The notes beneath the pieces are model-generated. The model made no database searches and was not told the origin of the DNA. It worked only from the letters and a program-made list of their open reading frames with translations. This document shows positions 11,199 to 53,373 of a stretch of DNA of 64,000 bases, piece by piece. Origin of the DNA: an uncultured Elusimicrobia bacterium (GTDB lineage Bacteria; Elusimicrobiota; Endomicrobiia; Endomicrobiales; CAIRNS01); NCBI GenBank assembly GCA_903880015.1, contig CAIRNS010000015.1:1-64000 (forward strand), read 5' to 3'. Each line of letters starts with the position of its first letter. The first letter of the stretch is position 1. The position numbers and the translations under genes are program-made.

Positions 11199-11274
11199 GT
11201 AGCCGCGAAGCTTGCTTCGCCGCCGTTGAGATGGGGATTGTTCCGACCGTCAGCAGAGCAAGCTCTGCAGCTAC
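11199..11274. repeat. REP doublet (REPIN-like) copy A
   Basis: Two palindromes in opposite orientation: GTAG then CCGCGAAGC-TT-GCTTCGC at the left, and GCAGAGC-AA-GCTCTGC then AGCTAC at the right, about 30 bases apart. The outer GTAGC and GCTAC ends are inverted. Relative to copies B-D the two palindrome types are swapped, so this copy is inverted. GTAG next to a hairpin is the signature of REP sequences mobilised by RAYT (Y1) transposases. It lies between cutA and the DUF4321 gene. Confidence 0.75.
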
Positions 11275-49563: not shown

Positions 49564-49568
49564 ACTCG

Positions 49569-49639
49569 GTAGCTGCAGAGCTTGCTCGGCCGGTGTTGGT
49601 GGTAAAACCGCACGGCGGCGAAGCAAGCTTCGCTGCTAC
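49569..49639. repeat. REP doublet (REPIN-like) copy B
   Basis: GTAG then CTGCAGAGCTTGCTCGGC at the left (the palindrome arm has decayed from CTCTGC to CTCGGC), a 30-base spacer, and GCGAAGC-AA-GCTTCGC then TGCTAC at the right. It lies between priA and the first pilin-propeller gene. Confidence 0.75.
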
Positions 49640-49702: not shown

Positions 49703-49724
49703 TATGGACAAGGAATACACTTGT

Positions 49725-51311
49725 ATGCAGAAAAATACATATATTTTTAATGAGCGGGGAACGGTGCTGATGATGGTTATCATCGCCAGCATTATTCTGA
49801 GCATTATAGGCATTGCGTCGATCAGTCTTTCCGGGCTGCAACAGATTGCTGCGCGGGCGGAGGTTGATGTCCAGCGGGCAAATGCAATGGCGGACGCTGG
49901 TCTGGAATACGGCAAGATGTGGATATCCAGCAGATGCATCAGCACGGAATTATTCCCCGAGAATTTAACCGTTCCGCCGCCGGGCAACCAAAACAGTATT
50001 TCGTTGGGGACGATTTCTTTTGGCTCGCGCGGTTCCTGCGCTGTCAGCATTACCCCTGACCGGCTCAATGATGTCGATTTGCTCATTTCAAGCAAGTCGG
50101 TCATCGGGACATACACTATTTCATCGACTGCCACTATCAGCACGGGTGCAACGGGGACCATGGACACGACGAAAAACAAGACCTGCCAAGTCCGTCTGTG
50201 GTACACGACGACATTTAGTTCGGGGCCAGTGATGAATGTTGGGAGATCTTATCACACCGCCACGTTGCTTCCTAGCGGGAAAGTCCTCGTCGCGGGTGGT
50301 TCAGGAGCTCTTGCTTCTGCGGAATTGTATAATCCTACGGTAAATTCATTTGCCACGACTGGCTCAATGGGCATCGCGAGGGTCCATCATACAGCGACAT
50401 TGACATTACTAAACACCGGGAAAGTGTTAATTGCAGGCGGATCATCGGATGATTTGGTAAATGTGCGACCCACCGCAGAATTATTTGATCCCGCCGGCAA
50501 TGGTGGACTGGGGTTATTTGTCTGGACTGGTCCAATGTTTGCAGCAAGATATTATCATACTGGTACAATACTTCCCACCGGGTACATATTGGTTACGGGA
50601 GGGATAGGAACCAGCGGGACTCTGCTTACTTCCGCGGAATTATTTGATCCCGCCGGAAATGCTGGAGCTGGATCGTTCACTCAACTTACTGCTGTACTCT
50701 CAATACCGTTATACGGCCATGTCGCGACGCTGCTCCTCAACGGAAAAGTTCTGATTGCAGGAGGGCTCACCACTAGTGCAACTCCTTCGAATGCTGCGGG
50801 CTTATATAGTGTTGGCACTGCTGCGAATTTTACTCCGACCGGTCTAATGAATGTAGCTAGATATGATTTCGCCACAGCCCTTCTTCCCACCGGGAAAGTT
50901 CTCGTCGCAGGGGGGGCGAACGGTACAGGGATATTGAGTTCTGCGGAATTATTTGATCCTGCTGGCAATGGGGGAATCGGATCTTTTTCCGCGACTGGCT
51001 CGATGTCAACGGCGAGGGCGAACTGCACCGCCACGCTTTTGCCAAACGGTAAAGTCCTTGTTGTTGGGTCGGGAACGAATGCCTCAACTGATTTGTACGA
51101 TCCTGCGGCAGGAACATTTTCTCCCGTTGGTTCTCTGTCAGGATCAAGATTGAGACATACCAGTACACTGCTTCTCAGTGGCAAAGTCCTGGTCGCGGGT
51201 GGGGACAGTTCAGTATATAAGACAAATGCGACCGATCTGTTCAGATCTATGCTCGGTAAACCGGTTGATAATTCCTACATCGAGGGTCCCGTCACACGGA
51301 CAGTGCACTAA
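49725..51311 (+). CDS. PilX-type minor pilin fused to a seven-motif kelch beta-propeller (copy 1)
   Basis: A 528-residue protein. Residues 8-50 (NERGTVLMMVIIASIILSII, then AEVDVQRANAMADAGLEYGK) are a PilX_N-type prepilin-like N-terminus: short head, long hydrophobic helix and the helix with AD.GLE. A linker of about 120 residues leads to seven kelch-like motifs of the form HTATLLPSGKVLVAGG...AELYDP...ar, each about 47-60 residues, enough for a full seven-bladed propeller. It ends GKPVDNSYIEGPVTRT. No catalytic site is recognisable. It is likely a pilus- or pseudopilus-borne surface protein. I use ATG 49725 (MQKNTYIF), matching the start of the sister gene. A run of seven Gs lies at 50910-50916, in frame. 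Confidence 0.8.
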   Translation: MQKNTYIFNERGTVLMMVIIASIILSIIGIASISLSGLQQIAARAEVDVQRANAMADAGLEYGKMWISSRCISTELFPENLTVPPPGNQNSISLGTISFGSRGSCAVSITPDRLNDVDLLISSKSVIGTYTISSTATISTGATGTMDTTKNKTCQVRLWYTTTFSSGPVMNVGRSYHTATLLPSGKVLVAGGSGALASAELYNPTVNSFATTGSMGIARVHHTATLTLLNTGKVLIAGGSSDDLVNVRPTAELFDPAGNGGLGLFVWTGPMFAARYYHTGTILPTGYILVTGGIGTSGTLLTSAELFDPAGNAGAGSFTQLTAVLSIPLYGHVATLLLNGKVLIAGGLTTSATPSNAAGLYSVGTAANFTPTGLMNVARYDFATALLPTGKVLVAGGANGTGILSSAELFDPAGNGGIGSFSATGSMSTARANCTATLLPNGKVLVVGSGTNASTDLYDPAAGTFSPVGSLSGSRLRHTSTLLLSGKVLVAGGDSSVYKTNATDLFRSMLGKPVDNSYIEGPVTRTVH

Positions 51312-51436
51312 TGCGCGACAGATTGCGATAATGCTTGCACAGCGCAATAAATTGTACTGCTGCAATCGTGCTCTCCCCGTTTTTTTCTTTCTATTGCTTC
51401 CTGAAGATTAAATCCTTAGTGGTGATGTTTGTAAAG

Positions 51437-51512
51437 GTAGCTGCAGAGCTTGCTCTGCCGGTGTTGGTGTTGGTTGTACAATCACACCGCGGCGAACCAA
51501 GCAGTGTGCTAT
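51437..51512. repeat. REP doublet (REPIN-like) copy C, right half decayed
   Basis: GTAG then CTGCAGAGCTTGCTCTGC at the left is intact; the right half (GCGAACC-AA-GCAGTGTGCTAT) has lost its palindrome. It lies between the two pilin-propeller genes, 1868 bases after copy B. Confidence 0.7.
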
Positions 51513-51597: not shown

Positions 51598-52938
51598 ATG
51601 CTCACAAAAATAAGTATTTTTAATGAACGGGGTACGCTACTGATGGTGGTTATCATCTTTGGCATTATTCTGAGCATTGTGGGTATCGCGACCATCAGCC
51701 TTTCGGGGTTGCAGCAGAGTGCTGCGCGCGCAGATGTTGATATTCAGCGGGTAAATGAAATGGCGGACGCTGGTCTGGAATACGGCAAGATGTGGATATC
51801 CAGCAGATGCATCAGCACGGACTTGTTACCCGAGAATTTGCCCGGGCAGGGGAACCGCAACAGTATTTTTTTCGGGACAATCCCTTTTGGTTTGCGCGGT
51901 TCGTGCGCGGTCAGCATTACGCCTGACCTGCTCAACGATGTGGATTTGCTTTTTTCAAGCATGTCGGTCATCGGGACATACACTATTTCATCGACTGCCA
52001 CTATCAGCACGGGCGCAACGGGAACCATGGACACGACGAAAAACAAGACCTGCCAAGTCCGTCTGTGGTATACGCTCACCATTAGCTCAGGTCCGGTGAT
52101 GACGACCGGGAGATATGGGCACACAGCTACTCCACTTCCCAATGGGAAAGTCCTTATTGCGGGTGGTAAGGGTAGTGGAGGTTCCTTGGTTAATAACACT
52201 GCTGAATTGTATGATCCAGTTGCCAACACATTTACTGCGACAGCTACAAATATGATTGGAGCGAGGTTTTGGCATACCGCTACACTGCTTCTTAACGGCT
52301 ATGTTCTTCTTGCAGGCGGGCTAGAAGGAAGCGAATTAAAGACTACTGAATTGTTTGATCCTGCTGGTGGGGGGGTGGGTTCATTTACCGCGGGACCTGA
52401 GATGACTTCATGGAGGGCATTCCACAACGCGACCCTGCTTAACAACGGAAAAGTTCTTATTGCAGGGGGAGGGTACAGCGGCAATCCCTATTTGGACACT
52501 GCCGAATTGTATGATCCAGTCGTCAGCACATTTACCGCGATAACTGCAAGAATGACTTCACCGAGATCTTCTTGGCCAACTGCCACGCGGCTTCCTAACG
52601 GCAAGGTCCTTATTACAGGGGGGCAGAACGGCGGCAATTTTTTAAGCAGTGCTGAGTTGTATGATCCAGGCGTCAGCACATTTACCGCGACACCTGACAT
52701 GACTTCAAGAAGATATCACCATTCCGCCACCATGCTGCTTAGTGGGAAAGTCCTTGTTGCGGGAGGGTATTATGACGGATCAACCTATCTGGACAGTGCT
52801 GAATTATATGATTATATTGCCAACACATTTACTGCGACACCTGCTATGACTTGCCAAGTGCCGGTATGCACCGGCGTCTTGTTTCCCGGTCGCAATGTTT
52901 TTGTTTACGGGTTAGACGGGGGGGGGCTTTACAAATAA
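51598..52938 (+). CDS. PilX-type minor pilin fused to kelch beta-propeller (copy 2), cut short at a G9 tract
   Basis: A 446-residue reading frame closely related to copy 1, with long stretches of identical DNA in the N-terminal third (for example around 51764-51822). NERGTLLMVVIIFGIILSI begins the pilin helix. Five complete kelch-like motifs (GKVLIAGG...AELYDP...FTAT) and half of a sixth follow. At the run of nine Gs (52918-52926) the frame leaves the propeller and stops after GGGLYK. With eight Gs it would read DGGGFTNKTQLYDPVANKF and continue through a seventh motif to GKPVDNSYIEGPITRT, the tail of copy 1. It is therefore either in an OFF phase, decayed, or carries a sequencing error. Confidence 0.8.
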   Translation: MLTKISIFNERGTLLMVVIIFGIILSIVGIATISLSGLQQSAARADVDIQRVNEMADAGLEYGKMWISSRCISTDLLPENLPGQGNRNSIFFGTIPFGLRGSCAVSITPDLLNDVDLLFSSMSVIGTYTISSTATISTGATGTMDTTKNKTCQVRLWYTLTISSGPVMTTGRYGHTATPLPNGKVLIAGGKGSGGSLVNNTAELYDPVANTFTATATNMIGARFWHTATLLLNGYVLLAGGLEGSELKTTELFDPAGGGVGSFTAGPEMTSWRAFHNATLLNNGKVLIAGGGYSGNPYLDTAELYDPVVSTFTAITARMTSPRSSWPTATRLPNGKVLITGGQNGGNFLSSAELYDPGVSTFTATPDMTSRRYHHSATMLLSGKVLVAGGYYDGSTYLDSAELYDYIANTFTATPAMTCQVPVCTGVLFPGRNVFVYGLDGGGLYK

Positions 52939-53176
52939 GACTCAATTGTATGATCCTGTCGCCAATAAATTTACTGCGACATCCGTGACGACTTCGCCGA
53001 GAACCGGGTGGACTACCACCCAGCTTCCTAACGGAAAGGTCCTTATTGCAGGGGGATTTATTCAAAGCCCATCACCAACCATTTTAAACACTTCGTATTT
53101 GGTCAGCAGAAAAATGACCGGCAAACCAGTGGATAACTCCTACATCGAGGGACCTATTACACGGACAGCACGCTAA
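52928..53176 (+). pseudogene. Out-of-frame 3' part of pilin-propeller copy 2
   Basis: This +1 frame begins straight after the G9 tract and encodes FTNKTQLYDPVANKFTAT, one more full motif (TTTQLPNGKVLIAGGF) and the conserved end GKPVDNSYIEGPITRT. It has no start of its own with a ribosome site. Joined to the upstream frame by loss of one G (or gain of two), it completes a seven-motif propeller. Confidence 0.8.
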
Positions 53177-53302
53177 CGCGCATAGGTGGCGATAGCGCCG
53201 CATACAACGCAACAAATAGTACTGCTGAAAATCGTACTCTCCCAATATTTCTTTCCCGAATAATTCCGAAAATTAAACTCGTAGTAGTTGGTTTTTGTAA
53301 AG

Positions 53303-53373
53303 GTAGCTGCAGAGCTTGCTCTGCCGGTGTTGGTGGTAAAACCCTCCGGCGGCGCAGCAAGCTTCGCTGCTAC
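53303..53373. repeat. REP doublet (REPIN-like) copy D
   Basis: GTAG then CTGCAGAGCTTGCTCTGC at the left and GCGCAGC-AA-GCTTCGC then TGCTAC at the right, with the same spacer text (GGTGTTGGTGGTAAAACC) as copy B. It follows pilin-propeller copy 2, 1866 bases after copy C. Confidence 0.78.

Follow-up and report, generated by a model that had tools for sequence, protein, structure and literature searches.

The window, that is, the whole 64,000-nucleotide stretch of DNA that was analysed, carries a tandem pair of neighbouring genes between priA and def. Both encode a pilin leader, with NERG ahead of a hydrophobic segment, then the body of a pilin, and kelch repeats. The first gene, referred to here as the sister, is intact, and the second, the target, is divided between two reading frames. 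The features of the locus are as follows:

49568..49639, + strand: dispersed hairpin repeat before the sister
49704..51311, + strand: sister gene, an intact PilX-type pilin with a seven-motif kelch propeller (ORF of 535 aa)
51436..51510, + strand: dispersed hairpin repeat between sister and target
51598..52938, + strand: target gene, first part as read, with the pilin module, five kelch motifs and part of the sixth (ORF of 446 aa)
51598..52095, + strand: pilin module of the target, with a leader ending in NERG, a hydrophobic helix and the pilin body (from alignment with the sister and with PilX of the relatives G004 and G002)
52913..52915, + strand: TAG that closes the frame of the tail and so bounds the frame change on the left
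52916..53176, + strand: target tail in the other frame, covering the remainder of motif six, then motif seven and the C-terminal pilin text GKPVDNSYIEGP
52918..52926, + strand: nine-G run, site of the frame break in the target
52936..52938, + strand: TAA ending the first part of the target, right limit of the frame change
53302..53373, + strand: dispersed hairpin repeat after the target (fold z -4.5)
11199-11274: further copy of the dispersed hairpin repeat in the window

A count based on the left arm of this hairpin repeat, which is about 72 bases long, puts it at 19 sites in the genome. Around and between the pilin genes there are three copies, spaced 1866-1868 bases apart, and they could drive duplication or deletion of these genes by recombination. 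An Rfam search over the region of the pair matched no family.

Repeated kelch motifs scoring above the Pfam cut-offs mark both proteins as carrying a kelch propeller, with Kelch_1 matching the target (E 7e-28, 96 bits, cut-off 20) and Kelch_4 the sister (E 3e-27, 95 bits, cut-off 22). The sister has seven motifs; the target has five clear motifs, a sixth that is degenerate where the frame breaks and another in the tail, and reaches the seven-motif propeller given in a preliminary description of this DNA only with the tail counted. The PilX_N model falls short of its cut-off in the target (E 0.005, 17 bits against 25.5), which is nevertheless 27% identical to the PilX of a relative, G004 (E 5e-8), and a search of this genome with the 170-aa G004 protein returned the target and the sister as its only clear matches (E 5e-8 and 3e-7). 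In G004 and G002, PilX is encoded between pilW and pilM, the small pilin genes of these two genomes being named by our own reading of sequence and gene order. In the present genome, pilM directly follows pilW and PilX is absent from that place (L109, G000:C10, 1786-1855), while core pilus genes were found on other contigs. Because the PilX_N score lies below the cut-off, the two genes are called PilX-type rather than Pfam family members, on the basis of homology and of the missing operon partner. They are the only PilX-like genes of the genome, and the pair looks like a moved and enlarged replacement of the PilX missing between pilW and pilM.

The shared C-terminus GKPVDNSYIEGP resembles that of plain PilX (IGSWKEFPIERV vs VDNSYIEGPITR), and for this reason the kelch propeller appears, judging from the protein sequences, to have been inserted before the last pilin strand. 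The proposal that the target encodes a surface protein is thus supported in the form of a pilus protein, through its homology to pilins and propellers. A single-sequence structure prediction of the sister reached a pLDDT of 37, too poor for use. No propeller domain of the PilC/PilY1 type was among the Pfam matches at E up to 1, and a search of 150 relatives revealed no other pilin-propeller fusion. Likewise, scanning a collection of genome contigs with both proteins found no relative, and scanning viral contigs for the tract with its flanks found none.

Read from 51598, the frame of the target runs for 446 codons to the TAA at 52936-52938, 12 bases past the G run. The tail frame is closed by the TAG at 52913-52915 and is then open through a kelch motif and the terminal text to a TAA at 53174-53176. 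Since these two stops close the two frames, the change of frame is confined to 52916-52935, an interval of about 20 bases of which the G run makes up nine. The run at 52918-52926 in the second pilin-propeller gene had been described as the only tract above seven Gs, and it is indeed the sole G or C run of at least eight in the window. The break had also been placed exactly at this run, which lies within the permitted interval and fills about half of it. As had been proposed, the other frame reads through the rest of motif six and motif seven to the terminal text of the sister, remaining open to 53176. Only 1.3% of composition-shuffled tails were open, so that the open tail is not a matter of chance. 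The locus therefore has two abutting open frames and, as set out below, a maintained tail, the arrangement of a contingency gene in which tract length switches the frame of an otherwise intact gene. In alignment with the target, the sister has no long G run at the matching place. The nine Gs stand exactly at the cut-off of the Neisseria phasome, a poly-G/C tract of at least nine (PMC5953494).

A comparison of the last 20 codons of target and sister gives 8 changes at 15 silent sites and 5 at 45 replacement sites (dS 0.91, dN 0.12, p = 0.0017), compared with a dS of 0.41 and a dN of 0.10 in the pilin module. Because these differences are mostly silent, the target tail is a maintained protein end that has evolved as a protein sequence through most of its history after the duplication. 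The target may, with a lower probability than the switching reading developed below, represent the ordinary loss of a redundant duplicate, through a single slippage fixed in the lineage too recently for a second lesion to have arisen, the function being carried by the sister. An intact tandem sister makes losing the target cheap, blade six is already degenerate before the G run, and the first lesion in such a loss would be expected to be just one mutation, at the site most prone to slippage. The tail speaks against such a loss in having no signs of decay, being open and showing an excess of silent changes over its last 20 codons, a figure to which the constraint on the sister contributes; half of the substitution record belongs to the sister, and a recent loss of the target is therefore compatible with the dS and dN values. 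The preliminary description had further argued that a break at the only long tract points to slippage rather than decay. This argument does not separate the two, because slippage is the commonest way in which a redundant gene copy is lost and because sequence errors, too, fall at homopolymers.

Within the pilin module, two stretches (51750-51830 and 51957-52070) are nearly identical to the sister, with a dS of 0.17-0.31 against 0.56-0.62 elsewhere in the module. This pattern suggests gene conversion between the copies in the pilin module while the propellers diverge.

A run of this length is within what chance would produce, since the Gly-Gly motif of the kelch repeats is G-rich. GGG codes for about one-third of the propeller glycines, compared with 20% in other genes. 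When the window was shuffled 100 times with its dinucleotides kept, 35 of the shuffles contained a run of nine Gs, with 0.64 such runs expected in the window, and recoding both propellers with the codon use of the window yielded a run of at least eight in 13% of trials. Across the genome, 9 G runs of at least nine were seen against 12.8 expected, and 22 of at least eight against 49 expected, the expectation being computed from the dinucleotides of the window. The enrichment in tracts that would support a contingency gene is therefore not found here, and its lack also suits the loss of a redundant copy. The nine-G run needs no special explanation, and the genome as a whole carries no sign of a poly-G strategy. 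The mismatch-repair proteins MutS and MutL are encoded in the genome, and all 13 other coding G/C runs of at least eight are in frame, including those in atpG and purH (named by our own sequence reading) and in kdtA (named by Pfam), which indicates that slippage at such runs is rare or purged.

The same controls bear on a further explanation, in which the true gene is in frame and the break stems from a mistake in sequencing or assembly, or from mixed lengths merged into one consensus, in a genome of 31 contigs that is a draft or was assembled from a metagenome. Homopolymers are the usual sites of error, and one base at one run would suffice. A general homopolymer or assembly problem was considered and ruled out by the intact frames at other homopolymers, namely the 13 coding G/C runs just mentioned and 22 of the 23 A/T runs of at least eight in the window, the remaining one being intergenic. 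A lone error at the target run is in our view a less probable account than the loss of a redundant copy, though not a negligible one: the genome offers only four other in-gene G runs of at least nine, at C6:11974, C6:15873, C25:45798 and C29:66161, all in frame, and so few controls constrain the frequency of errors in runs this long only loosely.

Together with the target, the genes with coding runs of at least nine comprise an epimerase, a glycan-cluster protein without a Pfam family, a HAD phosphatase and an O-antigen ligase, all surface-related by our own reading. The idea that they form a designed set of surface genes was rejected because it arose after the fact, because the frame is intact in the other four genes and because membrane proteins rich in Gly and Trp favour G runs. 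A surface-glycan cluster of 16.6 kb (L110, G000:C6) contains in-gene G runs of 8, 10 and 9, all in frame. Elsewhere, a G9 run at G000:C28:133581-133589 lies two bases before the contig end, where mixed run lengths may have broken the assembly.

Recoding, in which the ribosome or RNA polymerase slips at the G run and the truncated product is constantly made alongside the full one, would draw on the fact that a homopolymer run is in principle a slippery site. It would require a +1 shift or the dropping of a base from the transcript. Neither a stimulating RNA structure nor conservation of the site, either of which would mark a programmed frameshift, was found: the sequence after the run forms no stable RNA structure (z -0.5), and the same break occurs in no gene of the 150 relatives searched, hence without support from conservation. 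We regard recoding as highly improbable.

The organism belongs to Endomicrobiales (Elusimicrobiota). The 150 relatives came from a genome search that found a large family of genomes similar to this one within the order, and among them the present genome is the sole member of its genus or family. The best named matches of PriA are Endomicrobium, Endomicrobiellum and other Endomicrobia (37-52% identity), and we infer the link between these and the genome-search relatives. Two relatives carry genes with a frame broken at a G run. In G001 (C124; L124, L128, L177), two secreted collar-like genes, with leaders 99% identical over 112 bases, each contain a G run within the signal peptide, G10 in one and G13 in the other, and neither gene is in phase with its ATG. 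These genes, whose runs are at C124:19758 and C124:22502, are strong candidates for phase variation. G015 (L178, L180, L137) has two type I HsdM-HsdS loci in which HsdS is split at G17 and G14, as well as a D12 DNA methylase split at G9, and these are candidate phase-variable restriction-modification genes. The HsdS runs are at C28:14527 and C37:65702, and that of the methylase is at C20:56179.

G runs of at least nine exceed expectation 10 to 60 times in G012 (34 vs 0.6 expected), G014 (11 vs 1.1) and G015 (14 vs 0.8), three genomes of one family that is not that of the present genome, with the expectation taken from the fetched stretches after masking of runs. In G012 (1.1 Mb, 35% G+C; L117-L175), most of the examined runs of at least nine are intergenic, and G001, with three such runs, has no excess. 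Long G runs also stand at contig ends in other drafts, such as G077, and may be sequencer artefacts. HsdS, methylase and secreted-protein genes are classic phase-variable kinds. Since the split genes are of kinds that switch elsewhere, poly-G switching is, by analogy, likely to occur within Endomicrobiales, which raises the prior for the target without proving the case.

Starting from what was directly observed (the G run, the frame break, the maintained tail and the homology to pilins and propellers), the reading that we place first, and hold tentatively, is that the target has undergone a recent and reversible slipped-strand change in a gene on which selection continues to act. It would then be a phase-variable pilus adhesin paired with a sister that stays constant. 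The tandem duplicated genes encode minor pilins of the PilX type with a seven-bladed kelch propeller apparently inserted before the last pilin strand and, because the propeller is built into the pilin in this way, it would be displayed at the pilus, probably at its tip. The target would represent the off state, in which a one-base change in the length of the nine-G run in blade six truncates the protein, removing blade seven and the closing pilin strand. Slipping back of the tract would presumably restore the full-length protein, so that a population could switch, and the full-length protein would act as a putative adhesin.

Switching is favoured by the threshold length of the tract and its absence from the intact sister, by the intact second half of the gene, by the resemblance to Neisseria pilC and by the poly-G-split genes in the order. 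Doubts arise from the lack of any excess of G runs in the genome, from the unbroken frames at all 13 other coding runs of at least eight, from the presence of mismatch repair and from the tract length, nine Gs being at the bottom of the range that switches. The gene may be an on/off switch like those of Neisseria pili, but the data fit a simple recent mutation or an error in the sequence nearly as well. The claim of a phase-variable surface protein accordingly stands as regards a pilus protein with a slippery tract, a break at that tract and an intact remainder, while phase variation itself is plausible and unproven. We rank a switchable allele first, followed by recent loss, sequence error and, far behind, recoding.

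A broader proposal, which we put forward with slightly greater reserve than the switching of the target, is that Endomicrobiales use poly-G contingency genes for restriction-modification, secreted proteins and pili, the target being a switchable single-protein pilin-propeller adhesin beside a constant copy. If true, this would extend poly-G phase variation to Elusimicrobiota, for which a literature search of limited scope found no paper on phase variation. If real, the target would be a case of G-run frame switching in a pilus protein from a bacterium other than the pathogens on which most study of the mechanism has focused, and its propeller built into a pilin would be a new arrangement. The broader proposal could be tested with sequence reads that already exist, through the split HsdS, methylase and leader genes of the relatives.

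Among the closest counterparts of the pair is the PilX of the pilV-pilW-pilX-pilM cluster in the Endomicrobiales G004 and G002, with which it shares homology over the N-terminal 140 residues and a similar C-terminal text. The PilX proteins of these relatives differ in having about 170 aa, no propeller and a place inside the pilin cluster, whereas the pair lies outside that cluster, between priA and def, and is duplicated and enlarged. Modular pilins with grafted modules are widespread (PMC8179133); compared with examples such as PilB of Streptococcus sanguinis (PMC8179133), the module here is a kelch propeller before the last pilin strand, and the word kelch is absent from the main text of that paper. 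The poly-G-split HsdS, D12 methylase and collar genes of G015 and G001 resemble the target in belonging to the same order and in having a frame broken at a G run (G9, G10, G13, G14, G17), but their proteins are unrelated to it and their runs are mostly longer, those of G015 being far above chance.

In Neisseria, two pilC genes switch by tracts of G9-20 (PMC5953494). The PilC/PilY1 proteins differ from the pair in not being pilins themselves and in having a propeller of a different Pfam family, unmatched here. The target in turn differs from pilC in its kelch propeller within a pilin, in a run near the 3′ end and in a run present in one copy only, and its switching has candidate status. Like the pilus-tip adhesin genes pilC1 and pilC2, the pair consists of two copies encoding a propeller-bearing pilus protein and, as in those genes, the length of an in-gene poly-G run decides the frame of the target (PMC5953494).
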